Virus record (IMG/VR): IMGVR_UViG_3300028840_001956 | Coordinates: 1 to 54,225 of that record | Source of the DNA: a virus | Direction: 5' to 3' (one strand) | Length of the DNA: 54,225 bases | Made by a program: the position numbers and the translations under genes | The notes under the pieces: generated by a model | Databases searched by the model: none | What the model saw: the letters and a program-made list of their open reading frames with translations, nothing else | Told to the model about the DNA's origin: nothing | Shown: positions 1,349-53,991 of the stretch, piece after piece | Layout of the letters: every line of letters starts with the position of its first letter | Position numbering within the stretch: the stretch's first letter is position 1

Positions 1349-1354
1349 AATTAC

Positions 1355-1383
1355 ATTGTAACATAGTCTTCGCCTTTTGTTAA
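1355..1383 (-). promoter_or_regulatory. sigma70-type promoter of the leftward recombination operon (repeat unit copy A)
   Basis: On the minus strand, -35 TTAACA (1383-1378), a 17-base spacer and -10 TACAAT (1360-1355). The spacer begins AAAGGCGAAGACTATGT, which is nearly identical to the spacers of the promoters at 4846 and 9669. The expected transcription start coincides with the ATG at 1348. Confidence 0.8.
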
Positions 1384-1414
1384 CCACTAATTGAAAAAAA
1401 ATTAAAGTTTTTAC

Positions 1415-4046: not shown

Positions 4047-4059
4047 ATTTAAAAATCGC

Positions 4060-4088
4060 TTGACATTAGTTTTCCTTCATGTTACTAT
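4060..4088 (+). promoter_or_regulatory. sigma70-type promoter overlaid by an inverted repeat
   Basis: -35 TTGACA (4060-4065), 17-base spacer, -10 TACTAT (4083-4088). The left arm of a perfect inverted repeat fills most of the spacer, and the right arm starts at about +3, so a bound dimer or loop could block polymerase. Confidence 0.75.
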
Positions 4089-4109
4089 TATTAAAGCATG
4101 AAGGAAAAC
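4069..4109. repeat. 13-bp perfect inverted repeat, candidate operator
   Basis: GTTTTCCTTCATG at 4069-4081 is repeated inverted as CATGAAGGAAAAC at 4097-4109, separated by 15 bases. The left arm lies upstream of the predicted transcription start, so the repeat cannot act as an mRNA hairpin from this promoter and is more likely a DNA site for a regulator. Confidence 0.7.
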
Positions 4110-4130
4110 CAAAATCAAGGGGGATACTCT

Positions 4131-4508: not shown

Positions 4509-4849
4509 TGAGTGATTATACTGATTTAGTCTGGCCTGGTAACAAGGTTGTTTGGGACCCTAAGGAACTTGAAGAGGCATGGAAGGTAGCACACGACGCC
4601 TTCTATAATTTCAAGACAGAGCGCGAGTCCGAATACCAGGACGAGCCGGACAGGGCCGAGGCCACCTTCCAGGAGATAGGAGACGAGCTTGGGATCTCTA
4701 AGGTAATGGCGCTGAAGGTGTATAAGAAGGCGCTCGGAAAAGCTGGACACCTGTTTAAAAAAGCCGGTGTCACGCTGGATTCGATAGCTCCCGACCCTGA
4801 CGCCAGCTATCGGTATGAGCGCGAGATCCATAATTTAATTAATGGTTAA
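4508..4849 (+). CDS. small HTH protein resembling sigma-factor region 4
   Basis: 113 residues. The segment 'ATFQEIGDELGISKVMALKVYKKALGKAG' (about 55-83) reads as a helix-turn-helix of the sigma70 region-4/LuxR type: an initiating helix, the G-I-S turn and a recognition helix with Lys/Tyr. The N-terminal part is acidic and aromatic. It could direct host RNA polymerase to phage promoters or act as a repressor or activator of the early genes. It ends just at the repeated promoter unit at 4846. Identification of the fold is by pattern only. Confidence 0.65.
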   Translation: MSDYTDLVWPGNKVVWDPKELEEAWKVAHDAFYNFKTERESEYQDEPDRAEATFQEIGDELGISKVMALKVYKKALGKAGHLFKKAGVTLDSIAPDPDASYRYEREIHNLING

Positions 4850-4874
4850 CAAAAGGCGAAGAGTGTGTTATACT
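4846..4874 (+). promoter_or_regulatory. sigma70-type promoter before replication module (repeat unit copy B)
   Basis: -35 TTAACA (4846-4851), 17-base spacer AAAGGCGAAGAGTGTGT, -10 TATACT (4869-4874). The spacer matches copies A and C. The predicted start near 4881 leaves only about four bases before ATG 4885, with the G-rich ribosome site (GAGGGGAG) upstream of +1 and so usable only in readthrough mRNA. Confidence 0.8.
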
Positions 4875-4884
4875 GAGGGGAGCT

Positions 4885-9223: not shown

Positions 9224-9655
9224 ATGAATAAATGGATTGTCCAGGGTAGATTGGGAAAAGATCCCGAGGTGCGGTACACGCCTTCAGGGACAGCGGTCAC
9301 AAACTTTTCGGTAGCCACTTCGAGGAAGTGGAAGGATAAGAACGGCGCTCCCCAGGAAGAGACAGAATGGACCAATGTTGTATTTTGGGGGAAACGTGCA
9401 GAGGTTATCGGAGAATACTTCAGCAAGGGGAAGATGATCCTGGTTGAAGGTCGCGCACAAACAAGCTCGTGGGAAGGAAAGGACGACGGGATCAAGCGGT
9501 ATAAAACAGAACTCGTTGGAGAAAACTTTTGGTTCTGCGGGGATAAAGGCGGCGGTGGATATACACCGAAGGAGTCAGACTACGGTGGAGCGCCAGGTAC
9601 AGCGCCAGCGCCAGGAACGGGTCCAGGTCCGGTTGACGACGACATCCCGTTTTAA
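9224..9655 (+). CDS. ssb: single-stranded DNA-binding protein
   Basis: 143 residues. The N-terminal OB fold begins 'MNKWIVQGRLGKDPEVRYTPSGTAVTNFSVATSRKW' and includes 'TEWTNVVFWGKRAEV' and 'GKMILVEGR'; the C-terminal tail is Gly/Pro-rich and ends in the acidic tip DDDIPF that docks partner proteins. It coats single-stranded DNA during replication and recombination and is the probable partner of the NinB-like protein. Last gene of the replication operon; a new promoter follows 14 bases after the stop. Confidence 0.95.
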   Translation: MNKWIVQGRLGKDPEVRYTPSGTAVTNFSVATSRKWKDKNGAPQEETEWTNVVFWGKRAEVIGEYFSKGKMILVEGRAQTSSWEGKDDGIKRYKTELVGENFWFCGDKGGGGYTPKESDYGGAPGTAPAPGTGPGPVDDDIPF

Positions 9656-9668
9656 TTTTAAAAACCGG

Positions 9669-9697
9669 TTAACAAAAGGCGAATAGTGTGGTATAAT
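9669..9697 (+). promoter_or_regulatory. sigma70-type promoter (repeat unit copy C)
   Basis: -35 TTAACA (9669-9674), 17-base spacer AAAGGCGAATAGTGTGG, -10 TATAAT (9692-9697). The following AGCTATGGAT (9705-9714) is shared with copy B, where it holds the start codon of the NinB-like gene. Here the ATG opens only a five-codon frame, so copy C looks like a duplicated promoter plus start region now serving the exported protein gene. Confidence 0.8.
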
Positions 9698-9756
9698 AGA
9701 ATTAAGCTATGGATATTGTACCTTAACGATTAATTTTAACAGGGGGATTATTTATC

Positions 9757-10641
9757 ATGAAAAAGCTTTTTGTAGTCTTGGCAATGATCGCAGCGCTTGC
9801 CTTCGCGCCTGTTGCGATTGCAAAGAACGATGGCAACCAGAACAGATGTCACAATATAGCCGGTCTCGTTATCGATTGTTCGGAAACGACCAACGTTGAC
9901 AACTCAATAACCAATAGGTCAACCTCTAACTCGAAATCCGAGGCAACGGTCGTTGGGTTTTTCGACGTCGATAATGAAATCGATATGGACCAGAAACAAA
10001 AACAGGCCCAGGCCCAGGACCAACTTCAGGGCCAGAAACAATCAGCCAATAATGAAGGCGTCGAGCAAAAAACCGACGTCAACATTGAAGGCGACGTCTA
10101 CGAGGCAGCACCCAATCACATTCAAGGCCCTGCCCTGGTTCAACCCGACGCGAAGTTTGCGAAGGGAAAGTCATTTAGCTTCCGCACTAAGGGTAGCTTC
10201 TGGACGACCCATAGCGGCTTAGGAAAAGATGCCGCCTACAACCTCGCCATTGATGCCGATGACGCTAAGGTTGACAGAGCGCTGGCCTATAAATACCCTT
10301 CGACCGAATACGTCCATAAGGGCATGCCGGTCAAAGGCGTAGATATGGGCAGCCTGTACGTTTATCCTGATGGCTCCAGAGTAACTGTCAACGGCCTTGA
10401 GGGTAAGGGGCTGGGGGTCGCCATGAAATATGGTGCCACTCATGCCGTAATTATCTATGACAAGGGTGACGCAGCCGATGGGTCCGCCTGGAATATCGGT
10501 GTTGGCGGCGGCGGCTCGTTCGTCCTGGATGCCGCTGGCAAAATGATGGCCGCACCAAATGGTGGATTTGGTTACGGTGAAGCCCACGCCATTAATTCTG
10601 AACTACCGGCGATGGTGATCAGATGTTTTAGGGCTGAATAA
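9757..10641 (+). CDS. exported Gln-rich protein of unknown function
   Basis: 294 residues. Residues 1-22 form a clear Sec signal peptide (MKKLFVVLAMIAALAFAP...), with cleavage predicted after VAIA. Residues about 83-105 are a Gln/Lys/Ala-rich low-complexity run ('DQKQKQAQAQDQLQGQ'). The C-terminal half is Gly-rich beta-like. The gene has its own host-type promoter, a ribosome site (AGGGGG) and no coupling to neighbours, as expected of a moron-type cargo gene that alters the host envelope. Two Cys near the mature N-terminus may pair. No family recognised. Confidence 0.8.
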   Translation: MKKLFVVLAMIAALAFAPVAIAKNDGNQNRCHNIAGLVIDCSETTNVDNSITNRSTSNSKSEATVVGFFDVDNEIDMDQKQKQAQAQDQLQGQKQSANNEGVEQKTDVNIEGDVYEAAPNHIQGPALVQPDAKFAKGKSFSFRTKGSFWTTHSGLGKDAAYNLAIDADDAKVDRALAYKYPSTEYVHKGMPVKGVDMGSLYVYPDGSRVTVNGLEGKGLGVAMKYGATHAVIIYDKGDAADGSAWNIGVGGGGSFVLDAAGKMMAAPNGGFGYGEAHAINSELPAMVIRCFRAE

Positions 10642-10675
10642 ATATAAGGCGCAGAACCCCGAATTTCAACCGAAA

Positions 10676-10738
10676 GGGCGGCGCTACCGGAAAGATGCGC
10701 CTGGATACGCACCGGTAGAGAGCCAGGTCATGCCGCCC
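10676..10738 (+). ncRNA. candidate pseudoknotted structured RNA
   Basis: In the 118-base gap between two genes, 63 bases fold into nested stems: GGGCGGC/GCCGCCC (10676-10682 with 10732-10738), CTACCGG/CCGGTAG (10684-10690 with 10712-10718) and TGCG/CGCA (10696-10699 with 10708-10711). The apical loop CCTGG (10700-10704) can pair with CCAGG (10723-10727), closing a pseudoknot. Read by eye only; not a tRNA and no T-run follows, so not a simple terminator. It could be a cis element for the gene at 10760 or a free RNA. Confidence 0.5.
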
Positions 10739-10759
10739 TAACAAACGGAAGGACCAGCG

Positions 10760-10951
10760 ATGCCAGATTTATCGAGGCCAGGATTTATGAGGGAATGCAC
10801 CGCTGGGGATAGCAAGGAAGCACAGAAGGGTTGTATATTCTTTGAACGAGATCGCGACGGGAAGTGCATGAATCAAAGGTTTTCAGAATTTTGCCCGTAC
10901 TACGATACTCTGACAGGTAAGGAAACGACATATGCGGATACTTGCAATTGA
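10760..10951 (+). CDS. small Cys-containing protein of unknown function
   Basis: 63 residues beginning MPDLSRPGFMRECTAG. Five cysteines are spread as C13, C25, C36, C45 and C62, possibly a metal site. The ATG lies 9 bases after a GGAAGGA site. It overlaps the resolvase gene by 20 bases. No known family. Confidence 0.6.
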   Translation: MPDLSRPGFMRECTAGDSKEAQKGCIFFERDRDGKCMNQRFSEFCPYYDTLTGKETTYADTCN

Positions 10952-11450
10952 TCCAGGAAACATAGAGTCTGCTTGGGTTTTATTCCAAAAGGAAAAGCTT
11001 AGCTTGAGGGAAGGCGTTATGTTTAAGATATTCAGTTGCGGCAAAGAGCTTAACGACGAGGTTCTCGACAAGCTTGCATATGAAATGTCCTACGACGCAC
11101 TCGCGATGGAAGAGATCGTGGCCTATGGGAAGTGGTCTGGCAGGGAGATTACTGACTCTGCATTTTGGTCAGGTAGATTCTGTCAGGCGTCCACAGCACC
11201 ATTCACCATGATTAATAGATCAAAGGTTAGGTGGCACCTGGGTGGACAGAAAAAGGTAACCGACGCCACAATAATTGAGAGATTGATCGAGAGGTTTTGT
11301 CCCGGGCTTTATTCTAAATACAAGGCCGGAGATCTAACGAAAATGAAAATGATAAACGCCTCTCGCGATGAATACTTCGAAAATTTTCATGACGATATAT
11401 GGCAGGCATTCGCATTAGGCGTTACCTGGTATGATCTAAACGTCCACTAA
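10932..11450 (+). CDS. RuvC-like Holliday junction resolvase
   Basis: 172 residues, the usual RuvC length. RNase H-like acidic residues are placed as expected: 'ILAIDPGN' (Asp7) on the first strand, 'ALAMEEIVAYGK' (Glu about 56-57) in the middle, and 'FHDDIWQAFALG' near the end (Asp about 155-156). The fit is to the phage RuvC/poxvirus A22-like resolvases that cut branched DNA before packaging. The start overlaps the previous gene by 20 bases. Placed between replication and packaging genes, as is usual. Confidence 0.8.
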   Translation: MRILAIDPGNIESAWVLFQKEKLSLREGVMFKIFSCGKELNDEVLDKLAYEMSYDALAMEEIVAYGKWSGREITDSAFWSGRFCQASTAPFTMINRSKVRWHLGGQKKVTDATIIERLIERFCPGLYSKYKAGDLTKMKMINASRDEYFENFHDDIWQAFALGVTWYDLNVH

Positions 11451-12834: not shown

Positions 12835-12851
12835 AGCACTTATTTTATTAA

Positions 12852-12933
12852 CCCGCCCAAGCCTGTATTATACAGCAAGGGGCGAAGCGGAACCTCTTAG
12901 AACAATACGCCGCACAAACTTTTAATAGGCGGG
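12852..12933 (+). promoter_or_regulatory. structured leader that can hide the ribosome site of the next gene
   Basis: CCCGCC (12852-12857) pairs with GGCGGG (12928-12933), which lies just before the ATG at 12936 and is its G-rich ribosome site. Inside are two short hairpins, CTGTA/TACAG (12863-12875) and GCGG/CCGC (12887-12913). The arrangement resembles a three-way junction. Weak evidence, from pairing by eye. Confidence 0.35.
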
Positions 12934-12935
12934 AT

Positions 12936-13109
12936 ATGGCTTATACTTACGAGTGCATAAAAAAGAAACATAGATTTTACACAACGCTAAGAGTACCAAA
13001 CCCTAAAATTTATCCTTGTGAAAAATGCTGGACAAAAGGCGTAAAGGAAATCAAAATCAAAAATAAATTTGCTACCGGCCTAAAATACAAGGGGATTGGA
13101 GACGCATGA
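12936..13109 (+). CDS. small zinc-ribbon protein (FmdB-like layout)
   Basis: 57 residues: 'MAYTYECIKKKHRFYTT', then 'YPCEKCWTKG' and a Lys-rich tail. The opening Tyr-Thr-Tyr-Glu-Cys and the later CxxC resemble FmdB-type single zinc ribbons, although the first knuckle has only one Cys. The TGA overlaps the ATG of the protease gene (ATGA), so both are translated together. The region is more AT-rich than its neighbours. Confidence 0.6.
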   Translation: MAYTYECIKKKHRFYTTLRVPNPKIYPCEKCWTKGVKEIKIKNKFATGLKYKGIGDA

Positions 13110-14531: not shown

Positions 14532-14915
14532 ATGGCAGACAAGAAACCGCAAAATCAGAGCCAATTGGCTCTCGGCAAGGGATTCGATCCAGAGTATATC
14601 ATTAAGTTTGGCAACCCGTCATTTCGGAAGGGACAAAACTTCACGGTGCGCGATGGCATAAAGCACGCCACCCTGAGTGACAGGATCGGAGACACAATCG
14701 GTTTGGCAGATGTCCAGGGCAATATTGTCGGCACCGGCATACTGACCAATGTCACTGTATGCTCGTTGATCGAGATACCGGACTTCGTGCTGAAGAATGA
14801 GCATGATCTCGACTGCGTGAAGCCGATCGGCCTGATGCACGTTCTTCAGGTTGTTTATGACCGAAAATTTTTGCCGCAGGATGTAGTTACCTGCGTGGGA
14901 TTCAATCTACTGTGA
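14532..14915 (+). CDS. ASCH/PUA-like domain protein
   Basis: 127 residues. 'FGNPSFRKGQNFTVRDGIKHATLSDRIGDTIGLADVQGNIVGTGILTNVTVCSL' has the strand pattern and the K/R-x-x-T-V-R-x-G...GD...G motif of ASCH (PUA-like) domains, which bind RNA or modified nucleotides. The assignment is by pattern. The gene overlaps the small terminase gene by four bases (GTGA), so the two are translationally coupled. An RNA-binding regulatory role is conceivable. Confidence 0.55.
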   Translation: MADKKPQNQSQLALGKGFDPEYIIKFGNPSFRKGQNFTVRDGIKHATLSDRIGDTIGLADVQGNIVGTGILTNVTVCSLIEIPDFVLKNEHDLDCVKPIGLMHVLQVVYDRKFLPQDVVTCVGFNLL

Positions 14916-15671: not shown

Positions 15672-15895
15672 AAACAAAAGAGACGTTTTATTATATACCT
15701 ACGTTTGGAAGCCATACCACGAAAGTCTTTGCCGGTACCATACCAGGACAGCATGGGGTTCACGAGGTCGAGAACACCAGGTATTTTATAGGATTCCTGG
15801 ATAACATATGGAGAATTAAAGACAGAGACGTCAATCCGTACATATTGCCCCTGCTTCTCTTGGCCACTATCATCGCCGGAATTATCTTTTTTTAA
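15668..15895 (+). CDS. small C-tail-anchored membrane protein
   Basis: 75 residues from the ATG at 15668, which follows a GGGGGG site and overlaps the previous stop by four bases. The soluble part is polar and the last 18 residues ('YILPLLLLATIIAGIIFF') form a C-terminal membrane anchor. Possibly involved in host-envelope interaction or lysis timing, but nothing specific supports that. Last gene before the promoter at 15904. Confidence 0.65.
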   Translation: MKTKETFYYIPTFGSHTTKVFAGTIPGQHGVHEVENTRYFIGFLDNIWRIKDRDVNPYILPLLLLATIIAGIIFF

Positions 15896-15903
15896 AATAG
15901 TGG

Positions 15904-15932
15904 TTAACAAAACACGAATAGTATGTTATAAT
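15904..15932 (+). promoter_or_regulatory. sigma70-type promoter (repeat unit copy D)
   Basis: -35 TTAACA (15904-15909), 17-base spacer AAACACGAATAGTATGT, -10 TATAAT (15927-15932). The spacer is a diverged version of copies A-C. The -10 box lies in the left arm of an inverted repeat (15923-15962). Confidence 0.8.
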
Positions 15933-15962
15933 GTTTTTAGATTGAGAAATAAATTATAACAT
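15923..15962. repeat. 10-bp inverted repeat over promoter -10 box, candidate operator
   Basis: ATGTTATAAT (15923-15932) and its exact reverse complement ATTATAACAT (15953-15962), 20 bases apart. The left arm contains the -10 box. The arm upstream of +1 is not transcribed from this promoter, which favours a DNA-level operator. Confidence 0.6.
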
Positions 15963-18929: not shown

Positions 18930-19003
18930 AGGGGTAAAAGGGGTCAAAATGGCTATCGTTTGGTAACTTTTTTTCAAACAAAAGGGACCTGCTCCAAATG
19001 AAA

Positions 19004-19042
19004 AGGGCGGTATCTCTGATGAATCATTGAGAATACCGCCCT
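19004..19042. terminator. bidirectional hairpin terminator between convergent operons
   Basis: AGGGCGGTAT (19004-19013) pairs with ATACCGCCCT (19033-19042). The minus-strand side is followed by TTTTCATTT and the plus side by CTTCGTTT. It lies between a plus-strand operon ending at 18929 and a minus-strand operon ending at 19074. Confidence 0.75.
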
Positions 19043-19073
19043 CTTCGTTTGATGTTAACCGGCTCTTTACTCG

Positions 19074-27248: not shown

Positions 27249-27303
27249 GATGCGTAGGGCCATAACGGTAAGGTCCTTAATTCATAGGCATATGCCGGAC
27301 TAT

Positions 27304-27329
27304 AATGGGGGGCTGAAATGCCCCTCATT
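27304..27329. repeat. hairpin after the fibre-like gene
   Basis: AATGGGGG (27304-27311) pairs with CCCCTCATT (27321-27329) with one bulged base. No T-run follows, so its role may be mRNA stability or partial termination. Confidence 0.4.
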
Positions 27330-27374
27330 GTTACCTTAGAATTTACAGGTAAACATCTCAGCACAGAATAACCT

Positions 27375-31207: not shown

Positions 31208-31753
31208 ATGGCTGATACTACCTATTGTTTCAAAGGAAAAGGTCCGGCGCTGCCTTACGATTCGATGTTCGCCGTACTGAAACGCAAAATCAATCTTCCC
31301 GCCCTGATATCCACCGACTACGGTAAGCTGGCCCTGGCCTCGGCACCGAATGTGTCCCTGTCCAGCTTCTCCGGCTTCGTACAGAACGATGTCCTGGAGC
31401 TTTTCGAAGTTCCCAAGGGTACCGTCATTGTCGGCTCCGGCTGCCGTGTATCGACCGCTGAGGGTGCCACCGCTGCCGCCGAGTTGGGTTTCGACTCCGC
31501 GACGCAGACCGCACTCGGTGTGGCCGCAACCGCTTCAGATCCGAATGCCTATGGCACCTTTGATTTGAATAGCGAGAAAACCCTGGCTATCCCGCAGATC
31601 GCGCTGGATGGTACGGTCGAGGGCTTCGGTGATTGTTATGTTACCGATGGCTCCATCGACTTAACCTTCACCACCAATGACACCTATGCCGCCGCAATAT
31701 TCGACATATGGGTGACGGTCTTCAGGGCATATGAGGACACCGACGCTCAATAA
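31208..31753 (+). CDS. capsid decoration-like or virion structural protein
   Basis: 181 residues, Ala/Thr/Ser/Gly-rich with repeated beta-strand patterns ('PNVSLSSFSGFVQNDVLELFEVPKGTVIVGSGCRVS', 'IDLTFTTNDTYAAAIFDIWVTVF'). Proteins of this size and make-up after the coat gene are often trimeric decorations. SD TAGGAG. Exact role not shown by the sequence. Confidence 0.6.
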   Translation: MADTTYCFKGKGPALPYDSMFAVLKRKINLPALISTDYGKLALASAPNVSLSSFSGFVQNDVLELFEVPKGTVIVGSGCRVSTAEGATAAAELGFDSATQTALGVAATASDPNAYGTFDLNSEKTLAIPQIALDGTVEGFGDCYVTDGSIDLTFTTNDTYAAAIFDIWVTVFRAYEDTDAQ

Positions 31754-31781
31754 TAGTTTCTAAATGTAAACTATAATTTTA

Positions 31782-31814
31782 AAAGGTGGGGTCTCTCGGT
31801 GAGGCTCCACCTTT
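31782..31814 (+). terminator. hairpin between structural genes, possible terminator
   Basis: AAAGGTGG (31782-31789) pairs with CCACCTTT (31807-31814), extended by an inner CTC/GAG. The T-run after it is weak (TTTATTC), so it may be a bidirectional or partial terminator. Confidence 0.5.
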
Positions 31815-31836
31815 ATTCAAAAAGGGGGAAACGATT

Positions 31837-43300: not shown

Positions 43301-46300
43301 AAGCCCTGGCAAAGATCAAGGCTGCTATCCAGGCAGAGCTATGGACATATCTCAGGAAGGATGTAGAGGCCGTCGAGAATGTGTTAATAGACTTCTACGT
43401 CAAGCTGTCCGAGAAGAATAAGGCCAAGATCCCACTCGCTGCCGTCGATGCCATTACGATAAAAATGTCCATTGATGTCGGCAAGGTTGAGGCTATCAGG
43501 ACTCCGGCCTCAATGCACACGCCGTCCGGAAAGATCTACGAGGGCGCTATGCACTCGGTCGCCTTCGAGAAGATGGAAGCTGAACACGGTGATGTCAACT
43601 ATGTCTTAGAGGTCGAAGACGGATACATGACCACGTTTGAGAGGTTCGTCGATAGGGACGAAGGCAACGCCATTGCTGAGAATGCTAACCAGGTATCAAA
43701 GGATCGAGAGAGATCTTATCTGATTTCAGAGGACTTGATAAAGGATATCTCGGACACATACATCATAGACGGTGACGGCCATATCGTCGCAATGGCCCAT
43801 GTTAAGGGTGACGACGCCGCACTTGGGATGATAGATGCAATAGTGAAGGGGCATGACAGCCTTCTCGCTTATGACTCTGATGGTCTTGGGGTGATAGCAG
43901 AGTCTCTCGGTTTCGAACTCGAAAGCGAGGTTGACGGTAGACAGATATATAAATACAAGGGAGAAATATACGATGCAAACATCATTGCGGGACGTTTTGC
44001 GGCTACTTGGAATAAAGACCTCAGGGCTGACGAACGCACAGCAACGCTACTTGACGCGATCACTGAGCAGGCTCGCACCGAAGGGTCCAGAGTGGTTGGC
44101 GGCAAACAAGGCAAAGCTGAAGAAAAGCTTATTGAGTACCTTAACAGGTCTTGGAAGAGCTACGCCGCTGGCGAAAAGGTAACCGGCACAACCGATGTTC
44201 CCACAAAGAATGTGAGGGTTAAGGGTGGCAAGTCTACAATGGCTATGATCCAGGTTTCCTCTCTTCGTGGTCGTGAGCAGGCTACGGCCAGGGGCGACAA
44301 ATATTTCGACCTTCTGTACTCGAAGGTTGAGGGATACGAGAGACCAACTGACTTTTGGGAAGTACCGACCTGGATGGCCCACGGAGCAAAGAGCTTCAAG
44401 AACGCTGACGCCTATATCGTCAGGAATGTAGAAGAGGCGAAGGCTTATCTGAGGAACTCTGGATATGAGTCGATCATGTTCTCGGCCATGGATGCCAATA
44501 AGCATTTTATTAAAGAGTTGGCCGGAAGCTTCTCCGGTGATATTATAATTGGGGGGTACGTTGATCCCGGCTACTTTGCTGGGATTAAAAATATCAAGTT
44601 CGCGGATAGCATGGAAGCTGCTGCGAAACTGTTAAAGGTGCCGTTTAAACAGGGCGTTGATTACCGCCAGTTTAAAGGCACCAGGGTTATCCCTCGCCTT
44701 GAGATGTCAAAAGGCTGCAAGCATAAATGTGCATTCTGTACAGTGCCAAAGAAAATTGAGATGGCCGATGATATTGCTGACCAGGTTAAATCCATGGCCG
44801 GTCTCGGGCATAAACTGATATATCTAAACGATAAGACCTTCGGGCAGGCCGAGAACTATAAGGACCTGGTGAAGATCAATGAGCAGGTGAAGGCGCAGAA
44901 CCCCGAATTTCAAGGGTTTATAATCCAGACCACCGCACCGGCATTTAACAAGATGGATGACGAGTTCATCAAAGAGTCCGGTATTAAATATGTTGAGCTT
45001 GGGATGGAATCGTTTAACGATGATATCCTTGAGAAAATAAATAAGCCGCACCGACAGAAACATATAGTCGAGGCCGCCGATAAGATTCGCAGGCTTGGTC
45101 TTAGATTCATACCTAACGTGATGGTAGGATTGGCAGGGGTTGACAAGAAAGGTGACCTCTGGACTGAGACCGCAGAGTCTTATCGAAATACCCTGACATT
45201 CCTGGAGCAAAACAAGGATATCATATCACACACAAACTCATACATTCTGGCTACCTACGAGGGAACCGAGACGGGCAAGCAACTCGGGACGGATAATGAG
45301 ATTGATGGTGATGAAAATGTGGTGCAGAAATCATGGCTCCAAAACCGAGAGCTACATGATATATTCTACCGAAGGCTTCTTGAATTCAGCGAGAGGCAGA
45401 TCGAACAGCCGGACGTCAAGGCTTCCATCCTCGTTGCCAGAAAGGAAGATCCGGTCGTGCTGCCTGGTGAGATTCAGGAAGACCCCGATACGGTGGATAT
45501 GGACCCAAGGGATATTGACGAAGAGTACGCATACGCAGCTATCAAAATGGTTCATTACCTTGAGCTTAAGTCACAGGCGTATAAGAAGATACCGGATGAT
45601 AAGCACGACGCCTTCTCGAAGCACTACCAAAAACAGACCGATAGCGAACTTGGTGTATATTCTGATAGGGTTATCGGCTACCTTAAGAGCGTTTATAAAG
45701 ATTGGCTCAGTCGCCATCGTGGTCCCGAGGGCTGGTTTAAAAGTATGTTCATGGAAGAATATGACTATGGCATGGAGCCTTCCCAATATTTTACCAATGA
45801 AAAGATTGGCTTCATCAAAATGGGTGACTTTTGGGAATTCGACGTATCCAAGGATATCATTGACGCCGTAGAGGAAAAGGCCACGAGGCCTTATGTTCCC
45901 CAGGAGCGTGATGAACTTATCGAATTCTTCAAGGACGAATTAGATATCGAACTTAGCGACCTCGCCCTGAAGGAGTACGATGACGATATGCTGCTTGATA
46001 AGGCAGAAGAAATGGTTTACAACAAATACCCTGCCTGGTACTTTTGGCCTGATACTGTCGAACTCTCTGATATCAAGGGTCTTCTGAACCTGGATGGCTG
46101 GGACTCGCCGTTCGGCAAGATCGTTAGAGAGGTCATGGAAACAAAGGGCTGGGAAGCATGGAGAGCAAACTTCCCGAGTATGGGTGCCACAGAGGTGCGT
46201 GTTGAAGAACAGTACAAACGCCTGAAGGACGCAAAGGACCAGGCAGCCAAAATGACGGCTATCTCCCTGGCCCTAAATGAATCCCATGTTTACGGCACTA

Positions 46301-53570: not shown

Positions 53571-53991
53571 ATGGCTTCAGTAAGTTCTATCAGAGTGTTC
53601 AACGCACGCACTATTGCAGCGAGTGGATCGTTAACGTCCCAGGCTTTTAAACTCGGATCTTACTCCGACATCCAGGGATACTTTTCACTCCATGTTGAAT
53701 TGTCTGGTGACGGAACGGGTAAGTTTCAAGCCGCCGTATCCAACAAAATTGTCTGGTGACGGAACGGGTAAGTTTCAAGCCGCCGTATCCAACAATAATT
53801 CAAACTTCATCATATCGTCTGATTCCTCGGACGATATTGTAACCGCGCACACGAAGACCAGTGGACCTGGATCTGATGGTGTGCAGATTTATCAGTTCAG
53901 CCCCATCACCTGCCAGTGGTTGAAAATAAAGGTGACGGAGACTGGCGGAGTAAATCCGATAACCGTAAGCGCCTGGCTTGCAATTCAATAA
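53571..53991 (+). pseudogene. small virion-type beta protein, frameshifted by a tandem duplication
   Basis: The frame from ATG 53571 (MASVSSIRVFNARTIA) runs 62 residues to a TGA at 53757-53759; the rest of the protein continues in another frame to 53991 ('NNSNFIISSDSSDDIVTAHTK' onward, ending 'VSAWLAIQ'). Removing one copy of the 49-bp repeat gives a single 123-residue protein. It is beta-rich, with no signal peptide, similar in style to small capsid or tail attachment proteins. It follows the giant gene by 5 bases. Whether it is broken in nature or by assembly error is open; a short N-terminal product would still be made. Confidence 0.7.
53698..53795. repeat. exact 49-bp tandem duplication
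   Basis: Copy 1 is 53698-53746 and copy 2 is 53747-53795; they are identical (beginning AATTGTCTGGTGACGG, ending CCGTATCCAACAA). Because 49 is not a multiple of three, the reading frame shifts. Confidence 0.95.

Follow-up and report, generated by a model that had tools for sequence, protein, structure and literature searches.

Does the gap between the genes for a 294-aa protein (ending at 10641) and a 63-aa protein (starting at 10760) of this phage genome hold a functional RNA and, if so, of what kind? In the window, here the whole 54,225-nt stretch that was analysed, the gap contains the sequence AGGGCGGC G CTACCGG AAAGA TGCG CCTGG ATA CGCA CCGGTAG AGAG CCAGG TCAT GCCGCCCT, in which direct reading reveals a structured RNA element of 65 bases on the + strand, at 10675-10739 (Table 1). 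A preliminary description had reported a compact nested layout of 63 bases with two perfect 7-bp stems. The layout is present, both stems are fully paired and P2 does have 7 bp, but P1 has 8 bp and the extent of the element was adjusted because of this. The 4-bp apical stem (P3, TGCG/CGCA) and the match between CCTGG in the loop and CCAGG in the junction are present as first described.

Table 1. Coordinates in the window of the parts of the element and of neighbouring features
Feature	Position	Strand	Remarks
P1 5′ strand, AGGGCGGC	10675..10682	+	8 pairs
P1 3′ strand, GCCGCCCT	10732..10739	+	partner of 10675..10682
P2 5′ strand, CTACCGG	10684..10690	+	7 pairs
P2 3′ strand, CCGGTAG	10712..10718	+	partner of 10684..10690
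P3 5′ strand, TGCG	10696..10699	+	4 bp; same in L003
P3 3′ strand, CGCA	10708..10711	+	partner of 10696..10699
Apical loop segment CCTGG, proposed pseudoknot 5′ strand	10700..10704	+	free in nested ensemble
Junction segment CCAGG, proposed pseudoknot 3′ strand	10723..10727	+	CCATGG in L003
Downstream gene, 63 aa, Cys-rich	10760..10951	+	conserved in L003 and L004
RuvC-like Holliday junction resolvase gene, next in operon	10932..11450	+	phrog_1770, E 1.6e-8
Sigma-70-type promoter TTAACA-17-TATAAT	9669..9697	+	upstream of gene 9757; same in L003
SSB gene	9224-9655		two genes upstream

The minimum free energy structure predicted by RNAfold consists of P1, P2 and P3 on either strand, with -31.1 kcal/mol (z -2.8) on the + strand, a value equalled by 1 of 200 shuffled sequences. 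When corrected for GC content, the folding z at the element is -2.6 and many sites in the genome have lower values, so that the element is no extreme of structure. By the same GC-corrected measure, the strongest-folding 70-nt stretches genome-wide are 18991-19060, 31751-31820 and 4056-4125, the first and last of which lie in long gaps. The layout had been judged unlikely to arise by chance, and this estimate held. A search for a perfect P1 of at least 7, P2 of at least 7, P3 of at least 4 and a loop-junction match of at least 5, all within 75 nt, identified this element as the sole site within the window and 12 sites in 4,000 first-order Markov genomes, one strand each (~0.003 per strand, or ~0.3% of shuffled genomes). 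The nested stems and P3 account for most of this rarity; once the stems are in place, a 5-nt match between loop and junction is expected in ~3-4% of cases (4 x 9 / 1024).

The window phage is an orphan: the phage collection searched contains nothing close to it, and a DNA similarity search of phages and plasmids returned chance pieces only. Two relatives that share its gene order, designated L003 and L004, are present in IMG/VR, with metallophosphoesterases 81% and 61% identical, respectively, to that of the window. Scans for further relatives with the RuvC-like and ClpP-like proteins returned just distant relatives of single proteins. When IMG/VR and GTDB genomes were searched for the core pattern, the flanking stems were found only in L003 among the matches listed and checked. 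Model R1 had no match at loci encoding ClpP-like proteins, and had two weak matches, of 22 and 19 bits, at RuvC-related loci that were taken as chance; the one of these displayed is without the P3 region.

Comparison with L003 supports a conserved structured RNA with its stems kept. The element is 83% identical in the two phages, against 42% and 45% in the two flanking parts of the gap and 50-74% in the surrounding genes; of its 66 columns, 4 of the 48 paired and 7 of the 18 unpaired ones differ (Fisher p 0.007). With the pseudoknot included, a U being bulged, 23 of the 24 pairs are standard in L003. On the + strand, two pairs in P1 have become G-U and one C-G pair in P2 has become U-G, there is one mismatch in P1, and no pair is altered on both sides. 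Compensatory changes, proposed earlier as support for the stems, are thus not seen as double changes, but the stems do stay paired. The orientation is that of a + strand RNA, with P1, P2 and P3 retained in the predicted fold of this strand of L003 and not in that of the minus strand. Relative to L003 there is also one deletion and one insertion that break any frame, so that no reading frame is shared through the element; the overlapping conserved coding frame, named at the outset as one of two findings that would speak against an RNA, is absent. Conservation in L003 backs the original proposal of a compact structured RNA in the intergenic gap, and supports selection on it.

The syntenic gap of L004, compared with that of the window by hand, has a P1 of 10-14 bp of different sequence, an extra hairpin and CTACCGTCGCCTGGCGGTAG. 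This stable structure (z -3.6) precedes the same Cys-rich gene. Between P1 and the start codon lie 20 nt (window), 19 nt (L003) or ~21-25 nt (L004; 21-25 nt for the gap structure as a whole). A CTACCG...CGGTAG hairpin is the sole part shared by L004 and the window element. As a pattern designed post hoc, this motif with CCWGG four bases downstream was found only in L004 in all IMG/VR. Because model R1 scores just 1.4 bits on L004, homology there rests on position and one hairpin. The gene upstream of the gap in L004 is unrelated, no match to the 294-aa protein having been found in that phage, and the structured element therefore travels with the downstream genes.

The loop-to-junction pseudoknot is possible and weakly supported. 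A CCTGG/CCAGG duplex is predicted to contribute -6.7 kcal/mol in the window, where both segments are free in the nested fold, versus -2.9 in L003, where the junction CCATGG pairs with a bulge and competes with a local GGC/GCC hairpin. In the hairpin of L004, CCTGG is largely absorbed by a stem of 8 bp capped by a GCCU loop. As 4 nt link the junction strand to P2, its pairing would, in addition, demand a tight turn at the AAAGA bulge. Because the pairing weakens in L003 and is not evident in L004, and such a turn would be needed, the pseudoknot is unproven though possible; of the earlier claim there remains a pairing that could form in the window, with no compensatory change in the relatives.

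What might such an RNA do? The search for terminator-like sites found none on the + strand here; after P1 comes AACAAACG, without the U tract expected of an intrinsic terminator. The Shine-Dalgarno sequence is unpaired in the predicted fold, and so there is no visible switching mechanism. The sigma-70-type promoter listed in Table 1 is the nearest good promoter ahead of the element. On balance we lean towards a cis-acting intercistronic mRNA element, on the + strand, that affects the Cys-rich and RuvC-like cistrons; its probable role is to control or process the message of the genes downstream, the 63-aa Cys-rich gene being the cistron likely served. A polycistronic phage mRNA would start at the promoter at 9669 and fold, within the gap, into a hairpin of stacked P1, P2 and P3 that the loop-to-junction contact may close. 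Positioned a short way ahead of the ribosome-binding site of the Cys-rich gene, which the RuvC-like gene follows, the folded RNA would set the expression of these cistrons. It would do so most likely as an operator of translation to which a protein binds, or as a 5′-end boundary after mRNA cleavage, these being the likeliest modes because there is no U tract, terminator or paired Shine-Dalgarno sequence and because the spacing to the start codon is near-constant. That there is one clear homolog only, in L003, counts against this reading, as do the lack of pairs altered on both sides, the low R1 score on L004 and the unpaired Shine-Dalgarno sequence.

Precedents in phages match in part. In T-even phages, the T4 gene 32 operator is a ~28-nt pseudoknot followed by UUAAA/UAAA repeats, located before the SSB gene itself (PMC535899). 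In the element, P1 ends 20 nt ahead of the ATG, and the putative pseudoknot, if it forms, would likewise lie 5′ of a ribosome-binding site; the element has 65 nt and three stems, lies before the Cys-rich and RuvC-like genes, and has no such repeats that could be seen. The putRNA antiterminator of HK022, also a phage cis RNA of ~70 nt, has two side-by-side stem-loops downstream of early promoters (PMC9378689), whereas the element is one stacked hairpin ~1 kb past a promoter.

A tenable but doubtful alternative is a hairpin for mRNA processing or stability. Its double-stranded stem, interrupted by an asymmetric internal loop, would be cut by a host RNase (RNase III type) or would block exonucleases, so that the upstream and downstream messages are parted; the pseudoknot would then be incidental. 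The intercistronic position and a long irregular stem in all three phages fit this, as do the divergent sequence of P1 in L004 and the fading of the loop-junction pairing in both relatives, but the conservation of the loop and P3 between the window and L003 exceeds what a generic hairpin would need. That the sequence functions instead as DNA, an operator or repeat with CCWGG motifs, is unlikely. CCTGG and CCAGG are indeed the same double-stranded site and the stems are inverted repeats, but the three G-U changes in L003 spoil the symmetry of the DNA while preserving pairing in the RNA, and CCWGG has become CCATGG.

A new self-cleaving ribozyme or ligand-binding riboswitch is quite unlikely. 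The preliminary description saw a likeness to known small RNAs of these types while matching no known consensus with confidence. The latter was borne out, as Rfam 15 returned nothing for the window at the gathering cut-off or at E<=10, and just sub-threshold, chance-level matches for L003 and L004. The likeness was not supported, with no such match and no twister U-A step. Twister ribozymes are defined by a J1/2 with the U-A scissile step adjoining P1 (PMC5408937), and it is their P1, P2 and P4 with the L4-to-L1 contact T1 that the compact element recalls: three stacked stems with an apical loop that would contact the internal loop between P1 and P2 on its 3′ side, a topology shared in part in the window, with the pairing weakened in L003. 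The element differs, however, in having no second pseudoknot T2 that could be seen and no U-A step adjoining P1 in a 5′ L1 segment; its J1/2 consists of one G (A in L003), and the U-A step together with the ~10 conserved L1/L4 nucleotides of twister was not found. The poor retention of the pseudoknot in the relatives, and the single clear homolog, also argue against a ribozyme or riboswitch. In HDV ribozymes, the 3′ strand of P1 comes after P3 and P2 closes last, whereas P1 of the element encloses everything; direct reading of both strands did not reveal the HDV-like nested double pseudoknot order, and there was no CM match. Compactness, a phage genome and a proposed pseudoknot are nevertheless shared with the HDV-like and theta ribozymes carried by phages (PMC10879173); a further difference from these is that the window has no tRNA.

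A chance fold inside a stretch conserved for another reason is very unlikely since, modest as the thermodynamic excess is and with no covariation, the layout is rare in shuffled genomes and conservation is concentrated at paired positions. Two further candidates were rejected: a type III toxin-antitoxin RNA, as there are no tandem repeats and no ToxN-like gene was recognised, and stop-codon readthrough, as the frame past the stop at 10639 closes at once.

With this element, a phage lineage without an Rfam-matching RNA gains a structured RNA that is conserved and unnamed. A second intergenic RNA, at 12850-12936 (+) in the window, 12574-12662 in L003 and 9324-9400 in L004, is better supported than the element at 10675-10739. 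It is 88% identical to L004 over 66 nt and is predicted to form a hairpin plus an H-type pseudoknot (AAGGGG/CCTCTT with GCGG/CCGC), and its P1, CCCGCC/GGCGGG, overlaps the Shine-Dalgarno region of a 57-aa gene in the window and L003. Three pairs have changed on both sides among the three sequences, and 98% of cells pair versus 37-52% for slid versions. Model R2 identified this RNA only in the window, L003 and L004 among the loci scanned, and Rfam has nothing beyond chance for it; it looks riboswitch-like. A third structured intergenic element, at 27249-27345 (+), corresponds to 14718-14790 of the reversed L004 contig, with 81% identity, a strong hairpin at its end and no Rfam family. Together, the three suggest that the lineage may run several genes via structured leaders. 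It is improbable that the element at 10675-10739 represents a new class of small functional RNA, a ribozyme or ligand-sensing leader, limited to one uncharacterised phage genus, and improbable, taken jointly, that such a class is one among several pseudoknotted leaders of the same genome.

A perfect 24-nt direct repeat is present at 10646-10669, in the gap just 5′ of the element, and at 44890-44913. It is a piece of the radical-SAM-like part of a 4400-aa gene, copied into the gap; no longer dispersed exact repeat was seen in the genome. A guide RNA, considered for this copy beside the element, was rejected as the copy is absent from L003 and the neighbours searched include no recognisable TnpB- or IscB-like gene. 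An extended promoter sequence, GGTTAACAAAA...TATAAT, occurs in four copies, at 1354-1395 (-) and at 4834-4875, 9657-9698 and 15892-15933 (+), possibly as co-regulated phage promoters. There is also a perfect 49-bp tandem duplication at 53698-53795, inside a short open frame.
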